From Deltaproteobacteria bacterium (GTDB lineage: Bacteria; Desulfobacterota; Syntrophobacteria; Syntrophobacterales; Syntrophobacteraceae), in NCBI GenBank assembly GCA_012517315.1, contig JAAYVE010000003.1, positions 1 through 64,000 of the forward strand: a stretch of DNA of 64,000 bases, in the 5' to 3' direction. A model generated the notes under the pieces. That model did not search any database. It was not told the origin of the DNA and saw nothing but the letters and a program-made list of their open reading frames with translations. Both the position numbers and the translations under genes were made by a program. The first letter of the stretch is position 1. Every line of letters begins with the position of its first letter. This document shows positions 33,435 through 47,917 of this stretch, piece by piece.

Positions 33435-34169
33435 ATGGATTTTGTTGATATTAAGAGAAATCTGAAGGAAGCCATGCTCTCTCTGCTGTTGAACGGCACA
33501 GAAAACATGCCTGGTCTGACACAGATCGGAAAAGCTTGCATCGAATTGTCGGGCAACGGCGTTTTGCTCCGCTACAGCGTCGCCAGCTTGTTCCGGGTGA
33601 CTGTGGGTTTTTATATCGCAGCCCTCCTCGCCATCCCTCTGGGACTCTTCCTTGGCCGTCGACGAATCATCAATCGATGGGTAAACCCCTTCATCCAGTT
33701 TCTGCGTCCCATCTCGCCATTGGCTTGGATCCCGTTTGCCATGATCTGGTTCGGTATTGGAGACCGACCCGCTTTGTTCATTATTTTTGTTGCCAGTTTC
33801 TTCCCCATCCTGCTCTCCGCCATCTCCGCCGCAGCCATGATTCCTCCCATGTACTTCCAGGTAGCTGCGAATCTGCAGTTTAAGGTTTGGGAATCCATTC
33901 GGTACGTCATCATACCCGCCACGGCACCCAGCATCCTGCTCGGTTTGCGGGTCGCCCTGGGCGTCGCCTGGATGGTGGTGGTGGCCGCCGAAATGATCGC
34001 CGTCAAAAGCGGTCTCGGCTATCTCATCGTGGACGGGCGCAATGCCCTGAGGATCGACTACGTTATTGTCGCCGTCATGACCATCGGGGTGATCGGGCTC
34101 CTTTTGGACCATACGATGACGCGCATGGAACGTCTCGAGTCAGTGAGGTGGCGGTTTGAACAGTCCTAA
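33435..34169 (+). CDS. ABC transporter permease, nitrate/sulfonate/taurine type, 244 aa
   Basis: This inner-membrane permease has the BPD_transp_1 fold, with about six hydrophobic segments (including FYIAALLAIPLGLFLG and LFIIFVASFFPILLSA). The EAA-loop equivalent follows FKVWESIRYVIIPATAPSIL. It matches the SsuC/TauC/NrtB group. It overlaps the ATPase gene by 14 bases. The substrate is not inferable. Confidence 0.88.
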   Translation: MDFVDIKRNLKEAMLSLLLNGTENMPGLTQIGKACIELSGNGVLLRYSVASLFRVTVGFYIAALLAIPLGLFLGRRRIINRWVNPFIQFLRPISPLAWIPFAMIWFGIGDRPALFIIFVASFFPILLSAISAAAMIPPMYFQVAANLQFKVWESIRYVIIPATAPSILLGLRVALGVAWMVVVAAEMIAVKSGLGYLIVDGRNALRIDYVIVAVMTIGVIGLLLDHTMTRMERLESVRWRFEQS

Positions 34170-34986
34170 AATCTGCTTGGACCAAGTGTGGGTTGAGCAC
34201 ACCAACGGCAAAACCAACGGCCATTTCAACCTTTTCCCATGGTGGAAAAGGAACGGATGCGGCAATGGCAAGTCTCACAGCACGCCGAAGGTGGTGCTCC
34301 ATGACATCAACCTGGAAATCAACGCAGGAGAATTCGTGTGCATTCTGGGACACTCAGGGTGTGGAAAATCCACGCTACTGAGAGTCATAGCCGGATTCCA
34401 ACCACCAACGGCGGGGAAAGTGTGGATCGACGGCCAAAGGGTCAACGGGCCTCGTCCGAAACACGTCTTCGTGTTTCAACAGGGTGGGCTTTTCCCGTGG
34501 TTAACCATCGCCGAAAACATCGCACTCTCCCTGAGGTCTATCCGCGATCCGGGCGAAAGATACAATAAGGCCCAGGAGTATTTGTCCATGGTGGCTCTCG
34601 AGGGTGTTGAAAACGATTACCCTCACATGCTTTCCGGGGGGATGAGGCAGCGTGCGGAAATCGCCAGAGCGCTCGCTGCGGAACCCGACATTCTCCTCAT
34701 GGATGAGCCTTTCTCAGGACTGGACTATTTGACCCGCCTCCATCTGCGAGAAGAGATGGTGAACCTCCACGTGATGTTTCCTGATATGACTATCTTGTTC
34801 GTCACTCATGATATCGACGAGGCGCTTCAACTTGCGAACCGTCTCATCGTCCTCAGCGAACCTCCAGCAAAGGTCAAATGCTGCCGACCCATTCAGGTGG
34901 AGCACCCGAGGGTTCTCACCTGTTCGGAACTAGGAAAAATGCGCTCCCAGATCTACCATCACTTGGGGGTTCACACGGCTCTATGA
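34156..34986 (+). CDS. ABC transporter ATP-binding protein, SsuB/TauB/NrtD type, 276 aa
   Basis: This ATPase subunit shows Walker A GHSGCGKST, signature LSGGMRQR, Walker B ILLMDEPFSGLD, and the switch His in FVTHDIDEA. Between the first strand (CLDQVWVEH) and the P-loop domain is an unusual insert of about 30 residues rich in Asn, Gly and Lys (NGKTNGHFNLFPWWKRNG). It overlaps the permease by 14 bases upstream and the binding-protein gene by four bases (ATGA) downstream, so the three are coupled. Confidence 0.9.
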   Translation: MNSPKICLDQVWVEHTNGKTNGHFNLFPWWKRNGCGNGKSHSTPKVVLHDINLEINAGEFVCILGHSGCGKSTLLRVIAGFQPPTAGKVWIDGQRVNGPRPKHVFVFQQGGLFPWLTIAENIALSLRSIRDPGERYNKAQEYLSMVALEGVENDYPHMLSGGMRQRAEIARALAAEPDILLMDEPFSGLDYLTRLHLREEMVNLHVMFPDMTILFVTHDIDEALQLANRLIVLSEPPAKVKCCRPIQVEHPRVLTCSELGKMRSQIYHHLGVHTAL

Positions 34987-36017
34987 GGCTTTCACCCCTG
35001 CAGAGTTCATCCACTGCCCTGCGCGTGGGAAGCATAGCCTTTCTGTGGCTTTGCGTCATCACGGTGCTTCATGCCGCACTCAATGGCGAAACGCGACAAC
35101 CCAGCACCATTCGCATGGGATACATGCCGGTCATCACCAACCTCGCAGCTCCCCTGGCGGACCACTTTTCCAAGGATGGCACCCCGTCCTTTGAAGCGCT
35201 CAAATTTGGAAGCTTCTCAGAAATGGCTGAAGCTTTCCGCTCCAGGCACATCCAGGCGGCGTTCATCATTGCCCCTGTCGCCATAGCTCTCTACCAGCAG
35301 GGAGTCCCCCTGAAGGTCGTCTACGTGGGCAACCGGCATGAAAGCACGCTCGTCGTTGCAAAAGGTCTGGCCGCTAAGTCTATCGCTGAACTGGCCGGCA
35401 GGACGATTGCAGTCCCCATCCGCTATTCGGGACACCTTCTGGCGTTGAAGCGCAGCCTTCGCCTTCATGGTTTGGGCGATGAGTCCTTGCGCATCGTTGA
35501 ACTGCCACCGCCCGACATGCCCGGTGCTCTGGCTTCGGCCAGCGTAGACGGGTATTTCGTAGGGGAACCTTTTGCCAGCAAAGCGCTTCTGACCGGCACG
35601 GGCAGGGCGCTCATGGATGTGGAGGAAATCTGGCCGGGGTTCATCTGCAATCTCATGATCGTCCAAGAGGATTTGGTGAAAGACCATCCCCAGTGGGTCC
35701 AACGACTTGTCTCCACAGCTGTGAACTCCGGCTTCTGGGCCAGGGACCACATGGAGGAAGCGGTTCAGATCGTCTCGCGCTACTGGGGCCAGGATCCGGA
35801 GGTTATCCGATACGCGTTTTCACGAATTCCGGGTCGCGTCCGGTTTGATCTCTACAGCCCGGTGGAAGCGGAACTGCTGGAGATGGGTCGGGAAATGCTG
35901 CAGGCGGGACTGCTCAACGGAGAACTGCACCTGTCCGGGATGGTGGACGATCGATTTGCGCAGCAAGTAGATCTCTCGAGTAGCTATTCCTTTGAAAATA
36001 TTCAAGCGGTCAAGTGA
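34983..36017 (+). CDS. ABC transporter substrate-binding protein, NMT1/SsuA type, 344 aa
   Basis: This periplasmic binding protein of the nitrate/sulfonate/thiamine-precursor class has an N-terminal membrane or signal segment (about residues 12-33, VGSIAFLWLCVITVLHAAL). The binding fold then starts with TIRMGYMPVITNLAAPLA, and VDGYFVGEPFASKAL follows later. It starts at ATG 34983, overlapping the ATPase stop. The signal lacks an obvious lipobox or AxA cleavage site, so it may stay anchored. No neighbour tells the substrate. Confidence 0.85.
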   Translation: MRLSPLQSSSTALRVGSIAFLWLCVITVLHAALNGETRQPSTIRMGYMPVITNLAAPLADHFSKDGTPSFEALKFGSFSEMAEAFRSRHIQAAFIIAPVAIALYQQGVPLKVVYVGNRHESTLVVAKGLAAKSIAELAGRTIAVPIRYSGHLLALKRSLRLHGLGDESLRIVELPPPDMPGALASASVDGYFVGEPFASKALLTGTGRALMDVEEIWPGFICNLMIVQEDLVKDHPQWVQRLVSTAVNSGFWARDHMEEAVQIVSRYWGQDPEVIRYAFSRIPGRVRFDLYSPVEAELLEMGREMLQAGLLNGELHLSGMVDDRFAQQVDLSSSYSFENIQAVK

Positions 36018-36215: not shown

Positions 36216-38234
36216 ATGAAGATCCTGACAGTCGATCCGGAGGATATCCTTCAGGACAAAATCCGTGAAATTTCATGCACGCTCGATGAAGTGGGGATCA
36301 TCTCTCATAAGGACTTGGGAAGTGCATCCCCGGGTTCCCTTGGGGTTGACGTGGTCATCGGCACCGGGGACTTTTCGCGGCATTCCCCGGTGGGAGAAGT
36401 CCTGCTCAAGTGGCGCACCCATCCGGAGACTTACCTGGTGCCCTGCTGGATTGGAACGAACCGGGATACATTTGAGAAATGCTGTCTGTGGCCTGCTCTG
36501 ACTGTCGATCGATTCGGGGAACAAATGGAGGCATCGTGTCTGTGCGACTGGCTGGCTGAGGTAGCGGACTGGCAGCAGAACCGCATGCACGTGGGAGTCA
36601 GCCACAGTTTCTCCGAGCACTCCCCCCTCGAACTCTTGACATCCCTTTCCCTGCGGCGGGCCTCCGGAACACTCACGGTCTTCGACCAAGAAGGCAACCA
36701 AGGCCGCTTTCACCTCTTGGAAGGCTCTCTCTCCGGTGCCGAACTGAAGCATTTGCGGGACGAGGAAGCATTTGGCGATCTGCTCTCATGGACTGCGGGC
36801 AGCTACCACTGGGAACCCAATGGGTCAGCGTCGGGTCCTTCCCATTGCGGACAACCCCTTGAGCGCCTCATCGCCCAGGGACTTCAGTTGATTCGCGACG
36901 CCAATTTGCTCTTCCACTTCTTGTCCGAACTCGGGCAGAAAATTTCCCGAACCGAATCGGAAGCGGCACTGGATGACGGTGCTGTTCCCTACTTCCAGCA
37001 AATACGCAAGCTCTACCATCTCATCGAAGGTGACATGTCAGCCCGGGACGTCATAGAAATCTCACCCCTCTCCAAGCCTCGCACCATGAATGCACTGGCG
37101 AAATGGCTCTCTCTAGGGGACCTCCAGTCGCGACCTCTGGAGGACCAGCCCCGCAAACACCGCCTCCTCATTGTAGACGACTCCAAGTTGATGTGCAGGG
37201 CTCTTGAAACCGTATTCTCCAAAGACCCCAGGTTCGAAATCGTCGGAATCGGCCATGACGGCTACGAAGCCATCAGGCTTATTGAGGAGAGGGAACCCGA
37301 CGCTGTTACCCTCGACATTCAGATGCCCAACATGGACGGTCTCACTGCGCTCAAACATATCATGATTCGAAACCCGAAACCCGTCGTCATTCTCAGCGCC
37401 TTCACGAAGGAGACATCGCGGCTCACCTATGATTCCTTCAAGTATGGTGCAGTGGACGTCTTTGCGAAGCCTTCAGCCGGAACCCTGGAGGAAATGGCCA
37501 GAAATGCCGAAGAGTTGCGCAACCGCATCATCCAGGCATCGTGTGTCAGGATCGAGGCGGCCCAGTATATTCGACGTGCAAAGGCCGGTAACACTGCCTC
37601 TTCCTCGGACGCGGATCAAGAAGAGGTGAACGCAGGGATCGTGCAGCAGCGAGTGATCATCACCCTGTGCGGAACCGGCGGATTTCCATCCCTTCTCAAA
37701 CTGCTCCTGAGCCTGCCGAGGTCCCAGAGCCTCCCGCCGATAGTCGCCTGTATGGCTCTTTCAGAAAAGGTTGTGGAAGCGCTCATGCCGAACCTTCAAA
37801 AGGACTCCCAACTGAGGATACAGGAAGCTCAGGATGAAGCACCTCTCACCCCCGGCACATGCTATTTGTATTCCCATGAATGCCGCTATCAACTCGAAAA
37901 GATCAAGAAGCATATTCATTTGAAAGCATCCGCCAATGGGAATGGAAAACACCGCCCCTTCGACACCCTCCTCTACAGTGCGACAGAGGCCTTGGGAGAC
38001 CAAACCGTCGCGGTGCTCATTTCCGGGACGGGAGAAGACGGAGTGGACGGGTTGCGATGTGTTAGACAAGCAGGCGGTCAGGCATTGGTCCTTTCCCCCA
38101 GGGCATGTCTCAAGCCTGAACTGCCTCAGCTGGTCCTTGACCAGGGATATGCCCGTGAAGTGAGGACACCTTGTGACTTGGCGAATTTGCTGGAGGGGTA
38201 TCCAAGATCATACCCGGCAGTGGGAGCTACATGA
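36216..38234 (+). CDS. DUF4388-receiver-CheB-like protein with inactive methylesterase site, 672 aa
   Basis: This is the first of three CheB-like proteins in the operon. An N-terminal receiver-like segment (MKILTVDPEDIL) is followed by a DUF4388/PATAN-like domain (about 125-300), a true receiver (316-430) with D321, D322, phospho-site D367 and K418, and a CheB methylesterase-like domain (478-660). The catalytic Ser of the GASTGG motif corresponds to G486 (LCGTGG) and the QHMP His to C512 (ACMALS). Asp608 in GTGEDGVDG is kept. It should accept phosphate from CheA but not hydrolyse methyl esters. The start is uncertain: ATG 36216 was chosen, and ATG 36177 and 36114 are in frame. Confidence 0.85.
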   Translation: MKILTVDPEDILQDKIREISCTLDEVGIISHKDLGSASPGSLGVDVVIGTGDFSRHSPVGEVLLKWRTHPETYLVPCWIGTNRDTFEKCCLWPALTVDRFGEQMEASCLCDWLAEVADWQQNRMHVGVSHSFSEHSPLELLTSLSLRRASGTLTVFDQEGNQGRFHLLEGSLSGAELKHLRDEEAFGDLLSWTAGSYHWEPNGSASGPSHCGQPLERLIAQGLQLIRDANLLFHFLSELGQKISRTESEAALDDGAVPYFQQIRKLYHLIEGDMSARDVIEISPLSKPRTMNALAKWLSLGDLQSRPLEDQPRKHRLLIVDDSKLMCRALETVFSKDPRFEIVGIGHDGYEAIRLIEEREPDAVTLDIQMPNMDGLTALKHIMIRNPKPVVILSAFTKETSRLTYDSFKYGAVDVFAKPSAGTLEEMARNAEELRNRIIQASCVRIEAAQYIRRAKAGNTASSSDADQEEVNAGIVQQRVIITLCGTGGFPSLLKLLLSLPRSQSLPPIVACMALSEKVVEALMPNLQKDSQLRIQEAQDEAPLTPGTCYLYSHECRYQLEKIKKHIHLKASANGNGKHRPFDTLLYSATEALGDQTVAVLISGTGEDGVDGLRCVRQAGGQALVLSPRACLKPELPQLVLDQGYAREVRTPCDLANLLEGYPRSYPAVGAT

Positions 38235-38393
38235 GCAGCCGGTTGGAACTCGACGTCTTGGGCACCGGAATTCGAGGAGGATCCTGCTGATACTCTGTCC
38301 GCGTCTCCACCAGCAGGTCAGTGGAATGGACGGAAAAGTACCGCAGGATTCTGAAAAGAAACGACATTCTGAAAGTCAGTAAAGGGGTCAGCC

Positions 38394-38978
38394 ATGGAAA
38401 TGCCGTCTTTCGTTTCCCGTGTCTCGAGGGCGGAACGCGAGGATTCGGAACAATTCAAACAGTTGGTGAGTTTTCGCATCGGTCAGGAAGAGTTTGGAGT
38501 GGACATCCTCGTCGTCCAGGAAATCATCCGGCTTCCAACCATCACCCCCCTGCCCAATTCTCAGCGCTTCATCCTTGGGATGATCAACCTGCGAGGGAAA
38601 ATCATACCCGTCATCGATCTGCGCAGGCGCTTGAAGATCAGGGGCGGCAAGTCCAGTGTCAGCGACCGAAAAGCCCGCGTTCTCATTGTGGAAATGCAAT
38701 CGAGCGTGACCGGCTTCATCGTGGACTCAGTTTCAGAAGTGATGCGGATTCCCGCGAATGAAATCGAGCCCACACCCCACCTGGTGGTTTCCAACATCGA
38801 CTCCGAATACATCAAGGGTGTCATCAAACTTCCCAATCGACTGGTGATTCTTTTGGATTTCCAGCAGATCCTCAAACCCCAGGAAGTCAAGGAAATCCAG
38901 AGTGCACGCATCCATGCCCTCGAAGGCGATATTCGAGGTGCCAACACGGCCATCGAGTCTCTTTTTGAAACAACATAA
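38394..38978 (+). CDS. cheW: CheW-type coupling protein, 194 aa
   Basis: This adaptor links the receptor to CheA. The CheW fold is evident from [20 protein letters not shown], then [30 protein letters not shown], and [18 protein letters not shown]. Extra residues at both ends (about 20 N-terminal and 25 C-terminal) are charged. It starts behind AAAGGGGTCAGCC. The 159-base gap after the first CheB-like gene shows no other gene. Confidence 0.95.
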
Positions 38979-39016
38979 ACCGGCGCAAGCTCGGAATTGC
39001 AAGGAGGTATGAGAAA

Positions 39017-41593
39017 ATGATCGGTTTCAAAGGAATCAGGCGGTCGCTCCGGGCTAAGTTCCTGGTGCTGCTCTTGTCTGCGACGTTCGTCAACCTCTCC
39101 ATCATCGGCTACATCGGATTTCAGCGTCTCAAGAGTCAGCTGGAGGAAGACCAGAACACCCGTTTGAGCGGCTATTCAAGGCGTATCGCAAGAATGGTGG
39201 ACATGTTCATGAACGAGCGTGTCGCCGACATCTCCGCATGGGCTAAACTGGAAACCGTGGAAAACGCCGCAGACATTGGCGGCGGTCAGGCCGGTGGGAA
39301 CAAGCTCCTGGAAGACTTCGTCAAATCCTACAATACGTTTGACCTTGTGATCCTTTCAGATCGCAATGCCAAATGCATCGCCTCCAGCCTCCCCCAAGTC
39401 ATCGGCCAGGTTTCCGCAAACGAAGGATGGTTCAAGGAGGCCATGTCCGGCAAGGCGTTCATCGGTGACTTCACCACCAGCGAATTCCTCAAGAAATGGG
39501 TGCCCGAATCTAAGGGTTACACCGTCGTCATATCCGCTCCCGTCCTTGTCCATAAGGAAATCCGCGCCGTGTTGACCGGCTTCGTGCGCTTTGAGAACCT
39601 CAGTCAGATCATGGAAGCTTTTCCTGTAGGCAAGACAGGGTATTCATACATGGTGGACCGGGGTGCAGACATGACGGTCATCGCTCACCGTGACCGCGGC
39701 ATAGTGGGTCAGAAACTGAGGGATCCGAACATCAACGTCCCTGCGGCCGCCGACGCCTTCTCAAAATCCAACCGCGGGATGGTCATGTATCCGTTTGCCA
39801 ACCCGGTCACCAAGAAAAACGCCGTGAGAGTGGTGGGCTTCATGGCCAACGAAGGGTACGGGAACTTCGCAAAGAACTGGCTGGTGGCCACCGGTGCAGA
39901 CGACCATGAAGTCTTTCAGGCCATAGCCATTCAGAAATACAACTACGCCGTCATGTTCGGCGTGTTCTTGGTCGTTTTCTCGGCCATCGCCGTCGTCTTC
40001 AGCCGGGCTGTTACGAAACCCGTCGTCAATGCGTCGTCGGCCATGATCAGTATTACTGAAGAACTGGATTTCACCCGAACCATCGAGGTAAAGGGTGAAG
40101 ACGAAATCGCCCAGATGCAGCGGGCGTTCAACAGCCTCATCAGGAAACTCAGGGAAACCTTCGGCACCATCGTGGACGGTAGCCGGCAGGTTTCGTCTTC
40201 GGTTGTCCAAGTGAGAGAAATTTCCGTCCGGATTGCCAACAATGCTTCTGAACAGGCCAAGAGGGCCCAGGACATCCTCAAAAGGATCGAGGTCATGGGG
40301 CAGACGGCCGGGGAAGTGCAGAAGAACGCGCTGGAGAGCCAGCAGTCTTACGATGAAACCACCCTGTCCATCACACACCTGACGACAGGGATCCAGGAAA
40401 TCGCCACCGCTGCCCAGAACCAGGCCAAGCTTGTCGAAGAGGCAAGGAACATCATCAATCAAATGGGTGATACCGCTCAACAGGTTTCCATGCGTGCCTC
40501 TCAACAGAAACTGGCTGCAGAGGAGACAGCCGCCGCGGCCAAGCAGATGGCTCTCTCCATCCAGCAGGTTTCCGATAAGTCGTCCCTGGCAGGCAGACAG
40601 TCCGATCTCTCCTACCAGGCGGCCATAGAGGGCCGGGATGCCGTGGAACAGGTTGTGCAAGGTATGCACAGCATTGCGGAGAGTTCCGAACAGATCACCG
40701 AAATCATCGAAGTGATTTCAGACATCGCCGACCAGACGAACCTCCTCGCCCTCAACGCCGCTATTGAGGCCGCCCGTGCAGGAGAGCACGGGAGAGGATT
40801 TGCTGTGGTCGCCGAAGAAGTGCGGAAGCTGGCCGAGCGAACTGCCGAATCGACCAAAGAAATCGGCACCCTGATTCGGACGAGTGGGGAGCGTGTCAAA
40901 GACGGAACCGACCTGGCCACTTCAAGTCAGAAGGCACTGGCGAACATCGTCTCCTCCGTTGAGCAGACCAACAGCCTCATCCGCGAGATCGACCAGGCCA
41001 TGTCTGAGCAGACGAAGGAAATCGGAAAAGTTGAAGAGGCGATGGGTCGCCTGCAAAACCTTTCGAACGAAATTTCGGAGATGACGGCTCAACAGGTGCA
41101 ACGCCGTGAACGGGTGGGCAATTTGATGAACGAGGTGTTCCAACTGTCACAGGCCACGTCGGAGTCGACCCAAACACAGGTGCACAGCGCCGATCAGGTC
41201 ATGCAGGAAGTCATGAAGTCAAACAGGCGTGCCGAGAACATCACCCAGATGACCACTCAGCAAAAGGAACGCAGCCAAGCCCTGCAACAGGTGGTCAACG
41301 AAATGAGTACCGTCGCACTCACCAATGCGACAGGGGCCAAACACTCGAAGCAATTTAGTGAAAGCCTCGCAGGCGTCGTGAAGGAATTCAACGCCCTCAT
41401 CGCTCAGTTTAAGATCCATTCAGCGCCTGCTACCGTTGAGAACATCCCGCCAGCCGAATCACTCAAAACGAGCGGCAAGGGGGAAACGGCAAAGCCCGCT
41501 TCCGCTGGGAACGGAGGAGCCATGCCCCATCACCCGGGGGAGGGAGCCGTGCCGGCATCTCCTGAGGCTCGCGAGATCCATTCTGAAGTATAG
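39017..41593 (+). CDS. methyl-accepting chemotaxis protein with Cache-type sensor, 858 aa
   Basis: This is a membrane receptor. TM1 lies at about residues 14-36, a large periplasmic Cache-like domain covers about 37-308 ([19 protein letters not shown] and [13 protein letters not shown] are dCache-like), TM2 is near 310-332, then HAMP and a long cytoplasmic coiled coil. The signalling tip is perfectly conserved ([21 protein letters not shown], in two parts). The C terminus ends EAREIHSEV and has no CheR-tethering NWETF-type pentapeptide. Start ATG 39017 lies behind AAGGAGG. It is the only receptor in the operon. Confidence 0.95.
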
Positions 41594-41814
41594 GAGAAAA
41601 ACACCCCCTGAGGCGTCCTGCCCGACCGCAGATCACCCCGGGGGAAAACCGTGAAGTCAAGCAATCCATCTGTCAGCACCCCCTATCCATCCCCCTAGGC
41701 GAGGGTGGACAGGGAACAAACGATTTTCGGCGGCACTGCGTGGGGGCATGACTTCGTGTTCCAAGGTGCAAGGCCACCATTCAAATGAGAAAAACCGGTG
41801 GAGACTTTTGATCC

Positions 41815-42180
41815 ATGACCAAGCGCATTCTCATTGTGGACGATTCCAATTTCATGAGGCATCGCATCTTCCAGTGTCTCTCCGAGGCTGGTCACCAAGT
41901 TGTCGGAAAGGCGAGGGACGGAGAAGAAGCTGTCCAGTTTTACCGCAACCTTCAGCCCGATGTGGTGACCATGGACGTCACCATGCGGGGAAAAGACGGG
42001 ATCGCCGCAGCAAAGGAAATACTAGCCATCAATCCAGTGGCGACGATCATTTTTTACACCCTGCTTGATGTTCCCAACCTGGCGGAACGGATTCGGCAAC
42101 TCCCCATCAGAGACGTGATCAGGAAGGGAGATGAAGAAGGTCTGCTGCGAACTCTGGCGACAATTGGCGGGAAACAATGA
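41815..42180 (+). CDS. cheY: CheY-like single-domain response regulator, 121 aa
   Basis: This is a stand-alone receiver domain. The acidic pair lies in ILIVDDSNFMRH, the phospho-acceptor Asp in PDVVTMDVTMRGKDG, and the conserved Lys in RDVIRKGDEEG. The Thr/Ser switch region reads IIFYTLLD. No output domain is present, so it likely acts on a motor, a pilus or another protein, or as a phosphate sink for CheA. It lies between the receptor and CheA. Confidence 0.9.
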   Translation: MTKRILIVDDSNFMRHRIFQCLSEAGHQVVGKARDGEEAVQFYRNLQPDVVTMDVTMRGKDGIAAAKEILAINPVATIIFYTLLDVPNLAERIRQLPIRDVIRKGDEEGLLRTLATIGGKQ

Positions 42181-42286
42181 CATTGCAAGATCGCAGGCGG
42201 CTTGGAAAACCCCATGCACATCCATTGACATTGGCCGTTGGAAAAAATGCTTCCTCGATCAACCTCCATAGAAAAACGAGGTACTT

Positions 42287-45118
42287 ATGTCTTCTCTGGA
42301 GTTCTTGAATGAATACATCGAAGAGGTCAGAGAACACCTTCAGGAACTCGAAGAATCTCTGCTCACCCTGGAACGTGACAGCCTTCAGAAAAAAGAGATC
42401 GATCGGATCTTCAGGGCCGCTCACAGCATCAAGGGCGCTTCCGCCTACATGGGTTTCGAACACCTCGCCGGATTGACCCATGAACTGGAAAGCTTCATGA
42501 GCAATGTGCAAAGCGGGGATCTGGCCATCACCCCGGAGGTGATCACTACATTGCTCTCTTGTGTCGATGGGATCTCCGGCGCGCTGAAGCATCTTCAGGA
42601 GCACGGGTGCGAACCGGAACTGCCACCCCATCTGCTGGAAGGTCTCCGGTCACTCCGTTCCTGGGAATCCGAAGAAAACACTGAGGAAATCCAAACCATG
42701 GCACCAGCCATGGACGCAGAAGCCGACGGCACGGACGACATCCCAATTGAGCCCCTTCTGCCTCCTGAAAGGTCCGTGGAAGCAACCGGCGAGGAACTCC
42801 CCATCGAGTGGGAGCTGGAAGAGACAGAACCGGTCATTGCCCGGACATCCGACGGAGCTGAGGAAGCCATCGTTGAGGAGGACCAGGAGCTTTTCAGTAT
42901 TTTTCTGAGTTCATTTCAGGAGCAGTACGCACGACTCCAGAACCTGTGCGCAAAATTCCAGGACACGGTTCTATCCGAGGCGGACGTGCAGGCGGTCGTG
43001 GACATTATCGCCAAGCTCATCGCATCTTCCCAATACATGGACTATGAAGTGGTGGTCGGATACCTCCAGGAACTGGAAGCGGATGTGCGCAGGGTGAGTG
43101 CAGCAGGCACTGAGAGCGGCAACCACTGCATCGAATTGATCGAGGGCTCCGCACACTTGTTCGAACAGATTCTTCCGGGCCTGGTACTCTCTCGGGCGGC
43201 CCATCCCTCTCACGACCCCCTCGGTATCCAGGGGATGGGGGAAGCGATCCAGGAAGAAGATACTGAACTGCTGGGTATTTTCACCGATTCCTTTCAACAG
43301 CATATGGAGGAAATCCTGCAGATCGCCGGCGAGGCGAAGGGTCCCTTTATGGATCTGCTTCAAATGGAGAGAATCCGGGAGATACTGAAGAAGCTTCTCT
43401 CTTCCTCTCAATACATGGGCTACGACCCTGTCGTGGACGTTCTCACGGAATGGGACGAAGCGCTTGCCGAGGCCCAGAACAAGGGACTTGTGAGATCCGC
43501 CCAGATCGTTGACGCATTCAACCATTTTTCCGGACCCTTGAAAAAGCTCCTGCCCGGCCTGCAGTTGATGCGTCCCCAAGCGTCCCCCCACCCTGCAGAC
43601 CCTTCTGCGTCCCTTGACGCTCAACCGCAAGCGTCTCGGAACACTCCCCAAGACCCGGTCACTTCCGTGGAAGGCTCCGGCGAAAGCGCTCCTGTCAATG
43701 GCGCTTCCGCTCCGTGCAATATGGGGTCCGCTGAGAATGTGCAGATGTCTTCGGAAGATCCTTCAAGTTCGGTTCTAACCACCCGAAAGGAGCAAAACGC
43801 AGGCTCCACCGAGGAGACTCACACCTCTGCGACACTGCGCGTGGATGCCCAGAAGGTGGACCAACTCCTCAACCAAGTGGGTGAATTGGTCGTGACCCGC
43901 TCGGAGTTCATTCAGACATCCACATCATTCCGGGAAATCCTCAGGGAGCTGGCTGCCCAAGGGAAACTCTCCAAGCAGGAATTGCGCAGGTTGAGGCACC
44001 TCAGCTTCAGGCTCAACGAGTCCACACTGTCTCTTGGGCGCGTGGCCAATGATCTTCAGAATTCCATCATGCGTGTTCGCATGCTGCCTATCTCTTTTCT
44101 TTTCCAGCGCTTTCCCAGGGTCGTCCGTGATCAGGCTCTGAAGCTGGGAAAAAAGGTGAACCTCATCGTGGAAGGCGCCGATACCGAGATAGATAAGCGT
44201 GTTCTTGAACAAATGCACGACCCCTTGGTGCAGTTTCTGCGTAACGCTATCGCCCACGGGATCGAGACCCCTACTGAACGCAAAGCGGCGGGGAAAGAGG
44301 AAGTCGGTGCGATTCGACTGGGTGCCTATCATGAAGGGGATTATGTAGCGATCGAAATTGAGGACGACGGCAGGGGTATCGACACGCGGAAGTTGAGAGA
44401 GTCACTCCAGAAACGCAAGGGACTCAGCCCGGAGCAACTGGACCGGCTCACCGAGAGGGAAATGATGTCGGCCATCTTCCTGCCGGGTATATCCACCCAC
44501 GAACGAGTGGACGGAAGTGCCGGAAGGGGTGTTGGCCTGGACGTGGTGAAGGAAAACCTCGAGAGAATGAGTGGTTCCATCGAAGTGGAGTCCGAGGCTG
44601 GGAGGGGAACCCGTTTCACTATAAGGATTCCCCTAACGGTCGCAATCATTCGGGCCTTGATGGTCCAGGGAGCGGAACAGATCTTTGCCGTTCCCCTGAC
44701 GTCCGTGTCAGAGATCCTGAGATTCGAAAGGGAGAAGGTTCACACCATTGAAAGCTTCCAAGTGATCACATTGCGCGGCAAGACGATACCCTTGGTTCCC
44801 CTGGGGCAGTTGCTCGGCATCGCGCCCGGCAACACCGAGGACATGCACAGATTCATCGTGATCGTGTCGACGAGTTTCAGAGAAGTGGGACTGGTCGTTG
44901 ATGGACTCATGGGCGAGAGGGAAATCGTCATCAAGCCCATCGAAGACAGCACCTATGATTATGAAGGCTTCTCCGGTGCAACCATTCTGGGCGACGGCGC
45001 GGTCTCCCTCATCCTGGATGTATCCGCCCTTCTACGCATGATGAAACAGTCACAAGGTGTGCCCCAAATGAACCGCGAGGGAATGAGTGTCAACCAGGAG
45101 AGTCTGCGCTTGCATTGA
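42287..45118 (+). CDS. cheA: CheA-type histidine kinase with extra degenerate Hpt-like repeats, 943 aa
   Basis: The N-terminal Hpt domain has phospho-His46 in FRAAHSIKGASAYMGFEHL. Two further segments (about 198-300 and 322-425) resemble Hpt helices (ASSQYMDYEVVVGYLQELE and SSSQYMGYDPVVDVL) but carry no His at that position. A low-complexity linker follows, then the dimerisation helix (VDQLLNQVGELVVTRSEF). The ATPase has the N box in FLRNAIAHGIETP, EIEDDGRGID, and GRGVGLDVV. A CheW-like P5 domain ends the protein. The kinase core is intact. Its stop overlaps the TTG that opens the next frame. Confidence 0.95.
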   Translation: MSSLEFLNEYIEEVREHLQELEESLLTLERDSLQKKEIDRIFRAAHSIKGASAYMGFEHLAGLTHELESFMSNVQSGDLAITPEVITTLLSCVDGISGALKHLQEHGCEPELPPHLLEGLRSLRSWESEENTEEIQTMAPAMDAEADGTDDIPIEPLLPPERSVEATGEELPIEWELEETEPVIARTSDGAEEAIVEEDQELFSIFLSSFQEQYARLQNLCAKFQDTVLSEADVQAVVDIIAKLIASSQYMDYEVVVGYLQELEADVRRVSAAGTESGNHCIELIEGSAHLFEQILPGLVLSRAAHPSHDPLGIQGMGEAIQEEDTELLGIFTDSFQQHMEEILQIAGEAKGPFMDLLQMERIREILKKLLSSSQYMGYDPVVDVLTEWDEALAEAQNKGLVRSAQIVDAFNHFSGPLKKLLPGLQLMRPQASPHPADPSASLDAQPQASRNTPQDPVTSVEGSGESAPVNGASAPCNMGSAENVQMSSEDPSSSVLTTRKEQNAGSTEETHTSATLRVDAQKVDQLLNQVGELVVTRSEFIQTSTSFREILRELAAQGKLSKQELRRLRHLSFRLNESTLSLGRVANDLQNSIMRVRMLPISFLFQRFPRVVRDQALKLGKKVNLIVEGADTEIDKRVLEQMHDPLVQFLRNAIAHGIETPTERKAAGKEEVGAIRLGAYHEGDYVAIEIEDDGRGIDTRKLRESLQKRKGLSPEQLDRLTEREMMSAIFLPGISTHERVDGSAGRGVGLDVVKENLERMSGSIEVESEAGRGTRFTIRIPLTVAIIRALMVQGAEQIFAVPLTSVSEILRFEREKVHTIESFQVITLRGKTIPLVPLGQLLGIAPGNTEDMHRFIVIVSTSFREVGLVVDGLMGEREIVIKPIEDSTYDYEGFSGATILGDGAVSLILDVSALLRMMKQSQGVPQMNREGMSVNQESLRLH

Positions 45119-45213
45119 CATTGACCGGCATCTTCAGGGAGATGCTCCGTGAAGGGTTATATTTCCCTCTCTTTTGGAATGAACGAAATTCATCCTCTTC
45201 AGAGGTCCCGGCG

Positions 45214-46866
45214 ATGATCGAAGAAGCTGGAAGACCCCAAGCAGATTCAATGATGAGTGCCCGGCCGATTTCTGGCGGAACTCAAGGGTTCACGGGAACC
45301 ATCAACCTGCATCTGAACGATTTAATCCAGATGGTATGTCTCTCACGTTCAGACCTCACCATCCGGGTAAAATCGACTCATGGAAAGGGCAACATTCTTG
45401 TGAAGGAGGGCGAAATCCAACATGCCGGCACGGATTCGCTAACAGGAGAGGCGGCTTTTTTTGAGATCATGCGGTGGAGAGACGGGCAGTTCGAAATGAG
45501 TGTTGCTCACGAGTTTTGCGCCCGGTCCATCCACAAACCCTGGGAACACCTTTTGCTGGAGGCGATGCGCAGAAGGGATGAGGATACTGCCGAACAACAC
45601 CGCGCTGTGATGGCCGAATTCGAAGAAAGCTGCCTGGATGACTTGCAGGACGATGCGTCGGAGGATATCGACAAAGAACTCGACGGCGTTTTTGACGAAC
45701 TGGCCAAGGCCTCACGGGAATTCACCCAGGATGAACTCGAGGCCATCGAGGAATCGCCTGAGGAGGAACTGCCGGCTTTCGAGCAGGCTCCTGCGCAAGA
45801 GAGGCCTGTCAGGGTCCTCATTGTGGATGACTCACCGTTCTTTTCCCGGCAACTGAAGAGGATGCTCGAACAGGACCCGAACATCCAGGTTGTCGCCACA
45901 GCCAGAAACGGCAAAGAAGCCCTTGAATTCCTGGATGACAAACCGCAAGTCGATGTCATCACGCTGGACGTGGAAATGCCCATCATGCAGGGGGACACGG
46001 CTCTCAAGCATATCATGATCCGGCATCCCATCCCGGTCGTCACCATCAGTTCCTTGCAGTCCGAATCTCTTTTGAAGATCTTCGAGTTCCTGCAAGCCGG
46101 CGCGGTGGATTTTTTTCCGAAGCCCGGCGCAGCAACGAATCTGACAGGCTACGGAGAACAACTCCGGGATCTCGTGGTGAAGGCATCCAAAGCCGAAATC
46201 GGTCACTTCAAGCGGTGGAGAAGGCAGCGGCTGGAAATTCAGCCGGCGGAGGATGCGAAGGATAATGCGGCTGAACCGCTGGACAGGATTCTTGTGGTGG
46301 TGGGTGCGGAAGGTGCCTACATGGATTGGTTCCGCCTTCCGCTGCAAAGACTCTGCTCACGGGGCATCGTCCTGGGGCTCCAGAAAATCGCGCCGCCCTT
46401 CCTGCCCCGCTTTTGCCAACTCATCGAGGACGCCACCGGAACGAGCGTGAATCCCCTCGTTCAATCGGCAAACTTGGGTGCGGGATCCTTTTTTCTGGCG
46501 AATCCTTGCCGGTCGGTGAAGTTTGCACTGGATCAAGACGAAATGGCTCTTGTGGTTTCCATACAACACTCCAGGGAAATGACCTGGAGCCAAGCTTTGA
46601 CACACTGGATCCCGACTCTTGCGGAAGTGGCAGGCCGAAGGCTCTCTTTGTTCTGTCTGTCTGCTGCGACCGCTATTGCGCCTCAGTGGGTCAACCGAAT
46701 CATAGAATGCGGCACGCAAATCATCCTGTCTCATCGAAGCAACGTCATGTGCGCGGATCTCATAGACAGTTTCCACCCCTATGAACTGCTTTTTCCCAAG
46801 CAGGTCACCTGGGGAACGCCCGAAGGCCTGTTGGAGGTTTGGCTGAAAAATGCACCCCTATCATGA
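45214..46866 (+). CDS. DUF4388-receiver-CheB-like protein, methylesterase site lost, 550 aa
   Basis: This is the second CheB-like protein. It has an N-terminal DUF4388/PATAN-like domain (about 25-125), an acidic linker, a receiver (199-310) with D205, D206, phospho-site D252 and K303, and a CheB-like C-terminal domain. The GASTGG motif reads GAEGAY, placing E366 at the Ser. The QHMPPGF motif reads QKIAPPF, placing K391 at the His. The late Asp motif is not recognisable. I chose ATG 45214, behind AGAGGT; the frame opens at a TTG overlapping the cheA stop. It overlaps the next gene by 17 bases. Confidence 0.85.
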   Translation: MIEEAGRPQADSMMSARPISGGTQGFTGTINLHLNDLIQMVCLSRSDLTIRVKSTHGKGNILVKEGEIQHAGTDSLTGEAAFFEIMRWRDGQFEMSVAHEFCARSIHKPWEHLLLEAMRRRDEDTAEQHRAVMAEFEESCLDDLQDDASEDIDKELDGVFDELAKASREFTQDELEAIEESPEEELPAFEQAPAQERPVRVLIVDDSPFFSRQLKRMLEQDPNIQVVATARNGKEALEFLDDKPQVDVITLDVEMPIMQGDTALKHIMIRHPIPVVTISSLQSESLLKIFEFLQAGAVDFFPKPGAATNLTGYGEQLRDLVVKASKAEIGHFKRWRRQRLEIQPAEDAKDNAAEPLDRILVVVGAEGAYMDWFRLPLQRLCSRGIVLGLQKIAPPFLPRFCQLIEDATGTSVNPLVQSANLGAGSFFLANPCRSVKFALDQDEMALVVSIQHSREMTWSQALTHWIPTLAEVAGRRLSLFCLSAATAIAPQWVNRIIECGTQIILSHRSNVMCADLIDSFHPYELLFPKQVTWGTPEGLLEVWLKNAPLS

Positions 46867-47917
46867 AACTTCCAAGAACGGAAAGATCAAGACCCTGATC
46901 GTCGACGATGCTCCCCTCATGCGCAGGGCGATCCAGCACATTTTGAAGAAACAGGACAACATCGAAATCGTCGGCACCGCGACCAACGGGCGGGAGTGCC
47001 TGGAAAAGATCCCCTTGGTCAAACCGGATGTGGTGACATTGGACATCGACATGCCGGTCATGAACGGGATCACGACCGTTAAGAACATCATGGTGCGTCA
47101 CCAGATTCCCATCGTTATCATCAGTTCCCTGGTACAGGATGGCTACTTTGCATTCGAATCCCTGAGGCTGGGTGTGGTGGATTTCATCCCTAAACCTTCC
47201 CGGGTGGGGGGAGACAATTGGGCGGAAGAGGAATCCCTCGTCAGAATGCGGGTAAAAGTAGCTTCCGGCATGCAAGTGAACCGAATGCGGCGAGTACGGC
47301 GCCAAAAGAAACCCAAGAAGCCCTCTCTTTCCTCATCGTGGTCTACGCCTCCCGTCGTTGTTATGGGAACCAATCTCGCCGGCCCCAACACCATCATGCA
47401 CATCGTCACACAACTTCCTCTCGATTTCCCCGGAACGGTGGTGGCCATCCAGGAGATTCATCCTCGCATCCTGGTCCCCTTCTGCGAATACTTTAACGAA
47501 ATCAGCCCCCTTGAAGTGGTCCCCATCCAAGGCCCCTGTCGCCTGAACCCCGGCAGGATTTACGTCGGTTCCACTGCATCGGGAATTCACATCCACCATT
47601 CCAAGGGCAACCCATCGCCACTTTCCGTGAAGACCGGAGAGGCGACACGATCGCCCATCGACACTCTTTTCCAGAGTGCGGCACATCATGGGGGAAAAAA
47701 TGTCTGCGGGATTCTTCTGACCGGGATCGGGACCGATGGGGCAAACGGACTAAACGCTATCCGAAGCCAAGGAGGTCTCACCATCGCTCAACTCCAGGAC
47801 TGTTGCGTCTACCCCAATCTGGTAGAACACGCCATTGAGCAAAACGTGGTGGACTTGGTGATGTCCAATGCGGGGATTGCTAATCGTCTGCAGTCCTGGG
47901 TGGAAAGCACTATCTGA
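46850..47917 (+). CDS. receiver-CheB-like protein, catalytic Ser and His replaced, 355 aa
   Basis: This is the third CheB-like protein, with the canonical CheB layout. The receiver (about 14-125) has D19, D20, phospho-site D65 and K115. A basic linker leads to a methylesterase-like domain in which GASTGG reads GTNLAG (N175 at the Ser) and QHMP reads QEIH (E202 at the His). D296 in GTDGANG remains. The fold looks well kept, but the catalytic triad is gone. It is the last gene of the operon, converging with the DacA-type gene 50 bases on. Confidence 0.87.
   Translation: MHPYHETSKNGKIKTLIVDDAPLMRRAIQHILKKQDNIEIVGTATNGRECLEKIPLVKPDVVTLDIDMPVMNGITTVKNIMVRHQIPIVIISSLVQDGYFAFESLRLGVVDFIPKPSRVGGDNWAEEESLVRMRVKVASGMQVNRMRRVRRQKKPKKPSLSSSWSTPPVVVMGTNLAGPNTIMHIVTQLPLDFPGTVVAIQEIHPRILVPFCEYFNEISPLEVVPIQGPCRLNPGRIYVGSTASGIHIHHSKGNPSPLSVKTGEATRSPIDTLFQSAAHHGGKNVCGILLTGIGTDGANGLNAIRSQGGLTIAQLQDCCVYPNLVEHAIEQNVVDLVMSNAGIANRLQSWVESTI

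Follow-up and report, generated by a model that had tools for sequence, protein, structure and literature searches.

Why should a single chemosensory operon carry three CheB proteins, each with a broken catalytic centre? The operon in question lies at positions 36216–47917 of the window, the 64,000 nucleotide stretch of DNA analysed here, and its three CheB paralogues are termed X1, X2 and X3 (together the trio). The host's own family is denoted f1. An earlier note, made from the letters of the window, had proposed that the three are CheB duplicates that have lost the methylesterase triad and are maintained by selection.

The genes follow one another on the + strand in the order ABC permease, ATPase, binding protein, and then X1-CheW-MCP-CheY-CheA-X2-X3. 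The transporter comprises a permease (BPD_transp_1; 33435–34169) and an ATPase (34156–34986), both assigned by Pfam and both with relatives that adjoin trio operons, followed by an NMT1/SsuA-type periplasmic binding protein (34878–36017; Pfam NMT1_2, 5.5e-25) that scores 111.5 bits with the NCBIfam model SsuA_fam, below the cut-off of 163.5. X1 (36216–38234) contains an N-terminal region, a DUF4388 domain, a receiver with Asp367 and a CheB domain, as found by Pfam and alignment. It is followed by CheW (38394–38978; Pfam, 2.4e-39), a chemoreceptor with dCache, HAMP and MCPsignal domains (39017–41593; Pfam), a CheY-like single receiver (41815–42180; Pfam, 5.1e-19) and CheA (42287–45118; Pfam and alignment). 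X2 (45214–46866) has DUF4388, a receiver (Asp252) and a CheB-fold domain, and X3 (46850–47917) a receiver (Asp65) and a CheB domain, in both cases from Pfam, alignment and a structural model. The next gene 3′ of X3 is convergent, and encodes a putative DacA-like peptidase.

By Pfam each member of the trio has a receiver, and X1 and X2 also have DUF4388, in agreement with the earlier proposal that two of the copies carry this module. CheB_methylest is matched by X1 (E 1.2e-27) and X3 (E 7.5e-36), and X2 has no Pfam match to this domain. Neither Pfam nor a search with the genome's CheR found a CheR in the operon; not every CheB cluster includes one. The CheA has one intact Hpt (AAHSIKG); alignment reveals two further Hpt-like segments that have another residue in place of the His and keep the motif YM[DG]Y in 10/10 sequences.

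The three open reading frames, their origin as CheB duplicates and the receiver Asp and Lys of each are as first described. A Ser–His–Asp triad is named for a solved CheB (PMC7698151). The Ser–His pair is gone from X1, X2 and X3, and the Asp is kept in X1 (Asp608) and X3 (Asp296). In X1 the Ser is replaced by Gly486; the His is missing, as had been claimed, and MAFFT places Ala514 in its column rather than the Cys512 originally named. In X2 Ala365–Glu366 replaces Ser–Thr, Lys391 stands for His, and there is no Asp. The absence of Ser from X2 holds whichever alignment is used: one places Glu366 in the Ser column, a second Ala365. Neither alternative, Ala514 in X1 or Ala365 in X2, brings back Ser or His. 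X3 has Asn175 for Ser and Glu202 for His. Gly486 of X1, Glu366 and Lys391 of X2, and Asn175 and Glu202 of X3 are all residues that the earlier note had listed.

These substitutions recur throughout the host's own family (12 genomes including the window, with X1 absent from one short contig). All 11 X1 sequences carry Gly in place of Ser and retain the Asp; at the His position six have Asp, four Ala and one Gly. In all 12 X2 sequences the Ser column holds Ala and the next residue is Glu, the His is replaced (by Lys in seven, Arg in four and Gln in one) and the Asp is absent, so that none of the three triad residues is present. In X3 Ser is replaced by Thr (9) or Asn (3), and Glu replaces His and Asp is kept in 12/12. 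Every trio row of the family retains the receiver Asp and Lys; over all families the Asp is found in 96/96 and the Lys in 95/96 trio rows. Where rows are labelled as trio or canonical by profile score (three of them by the tree), and with L167 and L206–L209 left out as copies of existing rows, the triad is intact in 37/37 canonical CheB rows (28 distinct proteins and nine repeats; these are the highest-ranked search matches rather than a random sample, all of S-H-D type), 3/35 X1 rows (two repeats from double fetching, L183 and L190), 0/31 X2 rows and 0/30 X3 rows (one repeat each, L183). Of the 30 X3 rows, 19 have Glu and nine have Asp in the His column, and in f51, f58, f68, f80 and f85 the Asp of X3 is lost too. 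The earlier note had named homologues in the same operon with Ser and His as evidence against its reading. Such evidence exists in part: no X2 or X3 row has the whole triad, but three distant X1 homologues from two other families (L153, L155 and L197; f45 and f40) keep Ser, His and Asp. X1 therefore probably lost the triad inside its own group.

In a tree of 113 rows, calculated by a quick method without bootstrap, canonical CheB forms one branch (SH-aLRT 99), as do X2 (99) and X3 (87), and X1 may be a grade. With the initial labels the four groups take six changes on the tree; three rows were then reassigned in the light of it (L199_X1_9133 to X3, and L155 and L197, at first taken as canonical, to X1), and with these labels the groups take three changes, the minimum. 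Fourteen distant full-length loci (L020–L034 without L030) were rejected as trio members, all having Ser, His and Asp as read in the listed part of the alignment; the six that were entered in the tree are all on the canonical branch.

The NCBIfam model PRK00742 (cut-off 293 bits) scores X1 at 217, X2 at 131 and X3 at 235 bits, all below the cut-off, and three canonical controls at 440, 389 and 442 bits. A second CheB model (cut-off 342) also leaves one of the three canonical controls below its cut-off, at 317. Because the triad is missing, the three proteins cannot be filed as CheB methylesterases; they may still work like a CheB-type phospho-switch.

AlphaFold models cover X2 and X3, and were built on shallow alignments (11 and 13 sequences). 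Domain modelling, proposed earlier as a check, recovers the CheB fold for both, with Z = 32.3 for X2 and 37.5 for X3 against full-length CheB (1a2o; Salmonella). The C-terminal domain of X2 is mostly at pLDDT 85–93 (averaged in blocks of ten), and comparison of the model with 1chd, the CheB domain on its own, gives Z = 19.8 (187 residues, 13% identity). X2 is thus predicted to have the fold of CheB despite the missing Pfam match. The possibility that active residues lie intact elsewhere in the fold was considered and appears to be excluded, with none in the motif columns and the X2 and X3 models aligning along the whole CheB domain.

The pseudo-CheB trio is confirmed as real, its gene order and substitutions recurring in the family far beyond chance. 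The whole order X1-CheW-MCP-CheY-CheA-X2-X3 is found in 11 own-family genomes (the window, nine of ten own-family loci, namely L009, L011–L017 and L030, and G033) and in part in a 12th, L010 being a short contig with CheA-X2-X3 only. Substitutions are conserved where the order is, with Gly for Ser in X1 (11/11), Ala–Glu for Ser–Thr in X2 (12/12) and Glu for His in X3 (12/12). Comparison with L168, the nearest relative, gives dN/dS values of 0.071 (X3) and 0.120 (X2), or 0.094 (X3; dS 1.35) and 0.154 (X2; dS 1.76) when restricted to the CheB domains; with dS of 1.35 to 1.90, near saturation, these figures are only rough. The dN/dS check proposed earlier thereby yields rough values in favour of selection for X3 (∼0.07) and X2 (∼0.12; dS 1.5–1.9), and no value for X1, where synonymous changes are saturated (pS 0.76, dN 0.19). 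Over 11 sequences the three motif stretches of X3 have a mean conservation of 0.85, against 0.66 in the rest of the domain, with 19/30 motif columns invariant against 43/154 elsewhere; the motif loops may also be retained for the fold. Conserved order, low dN/dS in X2 and X3 and X3 motif columns conserved above the level of the domain bear out the claim of selection and not decay.

Decay is also hard to reconcile with X1, X2 and X3 each having a substitution pattern of its own, and decay or assembly error as the source of the substitutions was ruled out by the open frames and the recurrence of the changes. Against this, one stop was flagged inside the X2 match in each of G013 and G033; the X2 reading frames found there are open in both (548 codons in G013, L209; 547 codons in G033, L164).

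The window by itself could not show how old and widespread the trio is. Of 39 genomes from the order, 12 have a full-length X2 match (E below 1e-200) and a further four have a more distant one (1e-74 to 1e-86). At least 21 of 297 genomes sampled from the phylum have trio members, judged by score plus gene context or motif. These fall in at least eleven families (f1, f3, f17, f40, f45, f51, f58, f64, f68, f80 and f85), with further members in loci L018 and L019. The arrangement varies, with a block X3-X1-X2-CheY-CheA in f51, f58, f64, f80 and f85 (L199, L160 and L201–L204) and X3-X1-X2-CheA in f68 (L200), where no CheY was found. X1 and X2 were found without X3 or CheY in f3, and X1 and X3 without X2 in f17.

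Two kinds of neighbouring genes recur beside the trio. The binding-protein ABC transporter that adjoins the operon was not part of the earlier note. Every own-family locus with sequence far enough upstream of X1 has transporter genes there (11/11, namely the window, L161–L166, L168 and L206–L208, some of which include only part of the transporter); in L155, L156 and L018 the transporter is downstream of X3. L197 has a binding protein like that of the window upstream of an X1-type gene. A different binding protein is located upstream of X1 in 4/4 loci of f3 (its Pfam family taken from L150 alone), and two transporter genes lie ∼3.7 kb away in f58. The stretches retrieved for f17, f51, f64, f68, f80 and f85 showed no transporter. 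Beyond the binding protein of one f3 locus is a gene with a protein kinase domain (L150:16833–18674).

The second kind relates to polarity and pili. In six genomes spanning f51, f58, f64, f80 and f85 (L160, L199 and L201–L204) the trio adjoins HDOD and then MglB (Robl_LC7), MglA (Arf/Ras-like), a protein of 520–587 aa and a T2SSE/MshEN PilB-type ATPase, the HDOD, MglB, MglA and ATPase families being assigned by Pfam in L203 only. The 520–587 aa protein lies between MglA and the ATPase in all six, and the copy in L203 (4446–6149) has no Pfam match at E 0.01. In L200 HDOD was the only one of this set to be found. MglB and MglA follow X3 in two of 12 own-family genomes (G033 and G013), one of the 12 loci, L208, having almost no sequence 3′ of X3, and one of the four f3 loci has both genes ∼4.4 kb away from X1. 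The genome of the window has two MglA homologues, with MglA and MglB located on contigs other than that of the window locus, and seven T2SSE matches. ParA-like ATPases are found beside the chemosensory cluster in loci of other families (L153, L155, L156, L018, L157 and L159); of these the genes in L153 and L018 were scanned, and both begin with a zinc-ribbon match, below the cut-off in L153.

A single CheR of the host genome exceeds the Pfam cut-off, and a single CheB other than X1 and X3 was found, its triad intact; the two genes lie on contig C7, where a gene encoding a Flagellin_N domain is ∼11 kb away. When this CheR served as the query, the f17 loci (L157–L159) were the only ones to show a CheR beside the trio; there X1 and X3 sit with CheR and an intact CheB is present in two of three loci. 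Some relatives of the trio thus appear to work beside methylation. In a motif scan the operon receptor (39017–41593) lacks the methylation motif where seven other host receptors carry it (first motif 7/7, second motif 6/7; an eighth, C56:122903, was not recognised by the tip pattern), and has one match elsewhere, at −117 from the tip. Among 21 operon receptors including that of the window (in L017 the tip was not found), eight have one motif match, at places unlike those of the seven host receptors. The f17 receptors have no match although their loci have CheR, so that motif absence is weak evidence and compatible with methylation.

The explanation that we favour, with somewhat better than an even chance of being correct, is that X1, X2 and X3 are phosphorylation-controlled, non-enzymatic binding modules, most probably acting upon polarity or type IV pili and perhaps guiding movement over surfaces. 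They would be long-established response regulators of the CheB family that have ceased to be methylesterases. The dCache receptor, perhaps responding to a ligand handled by the adjacent binding-protein transporter, would drive CheA; the transporter linkage points to input by binding-protein sensing. Since the receivers are intact and the operon is shared, CheA probably phosphorylates X1, X2 and X3, and phosphorylation would open the receiver–CheB interface as it does in CheB. The exposed former active-site face would then bind a partner rather than cut receptor methyl esters, and DUF4388, which we take to be the PATAN domain, could give X1 and X2 further contacts. The output would most likely concern where the type IV pilus motor is placed, or how active it is, and would run via the MglA/MglB polarity switch. 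This last step is suggested by gene neighbours in relatives, which do not prove function. Points that count against the explanation are the location of the host's MglA and MglB on other contigs, the convergent gene next to X3, the f17 loci in which relatives accompany CheR, and the three X1 homologues with a whole triad.

The earlier note had instead suggested a clamp or scaffold, in which the phosphorylated CheB fold docks on the receptor helices and tunes the array without chemistry. The CheB fold predicted for X2 and X3, the intact receivers, the single receptor gene of the operon and the lack of a methylation motif at the usual places of that receptor (all seven other recognised receptors having it) are consistent with such a clamp. 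Yet it leaves unexplained the DUF4388 of X1 and X2 and the HDOD, MglA/MglB and PilB-type neighbours, and three divergent copies seem excessive for one receptor. We consider it unlikely, and the MglA, MglB, HDOD, PilB-type and ParA-like neighbours together with DUF4388 make an output to polarity or pili the more likely. The invariance of X3 motif columns (19/30 against 43/154 in the remaining domain), together with an His column of Glu (19) or Asp (9) in 30 rows and Glu in 12/12 of the own family, could also reflect a new chemistry in the old pocket. This would apply most strongly to X3, where Ser becomes Thr or Asn, His becomes Glu or Asp, and Asp is kept. However, no known enzyme motif was recognised, the Asp has gone from X3 in f51, f58, f68, f80 and f85, and own-family X2 lacks all three residues, and we regard new chemistry as improbable.

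With four receivers to one CheA in the operon, X1, X2 and X3 might just be phosphate sinks that drain CheA, with the CheB domains as passengers; passengers would not be expected to keep both fold and constraint, as these domains do (dN/dS ∼0.09 for X3 and ∼0.15 for X2; dS 1.35 and 1.76), and the probability of this explanation is very low. Regulation of the adjacent transporter in place of movement seems to us just as improbable. It would account for the position of the transporter genes, upstream of X1 in the own family (11/11 loci that extend there) and, in L155, L156 and L018, downstream of X3, but not for the fetched stretches of f17, f51, f64, f68, f80 and f85, where none was found, or for f3 with only a different binding protein, and the linkage is equally compatible with sensing.

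Non-enzymatic binding modules directed at polarity or pili thus remain the preferred reading. A broader version, which we offer tentatively as possible but short of probable, is that the trio is a phylum-wide pseudo-CheB set and a new type of chemosensory output, the three proteins working together and their reshaped pockets serving as phospho-gated docking sites that connect binding-protein sensing to the control of polarity and type IV pili by MglA and PilB-type proteins, in place of adaptation by methylation. CheB is treated as an enzyme of chemotaxis adaptation, and annotation based upon Pfam would call X1 and X3 CheB; counts of Pfam CheB domains can therefore overstate methylation-based adaptation. 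That a trio lacking the catalytic centre is conserved suggests re-use of a phosphorylation-gated fold, with a different pattern of substitutions in each of the three. The trio offers a compact, testable case for studying how pseudoenzymes arise within two-component signalling, and is a candidate for connecting chemosensing with the MglA/type IV pilus machinery in bacteria other than myxobacteria. Among the matches listed from the open-licence PMC literature, no title or abstract opening describes a non-catalytic CheB family.

A likeness to the cyanobacterial PATAN regulators PixE and PixG depends on DUF4388 being PATAN, as we have assumed. Those systems are chemotaxis-like, with a receiver protein that has a PATAN module reaching PilB (PMC7690835, PMC10519157) and a PATAN domain that is reported to bind PilB (PMC10519157); unlike the trio, they are set out in the available descriptions with no mention of a CheB domain. 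The Frz – FrzZ/RomR – MglA/MglB pathway of Myxococcus xanthus (PMC3441718, PMC4546325) is similar in having a chemosensory kinase and several response regulators acting on MglA/MglB polarity. Its outputs FrzZ, with two receivers, and RomR are not described as CheB-fold proteins in the accounts available, and the trio is set apart from them by those descriptions. From CheB methylesterase itself (1a2o; PRK00742) the trio differs in the loss of the triad and in PRK00742 scores below the cut-off, and shares with it the receiver followed by the CheB fold, with the phosphorylated Asp and the Lys both kept.
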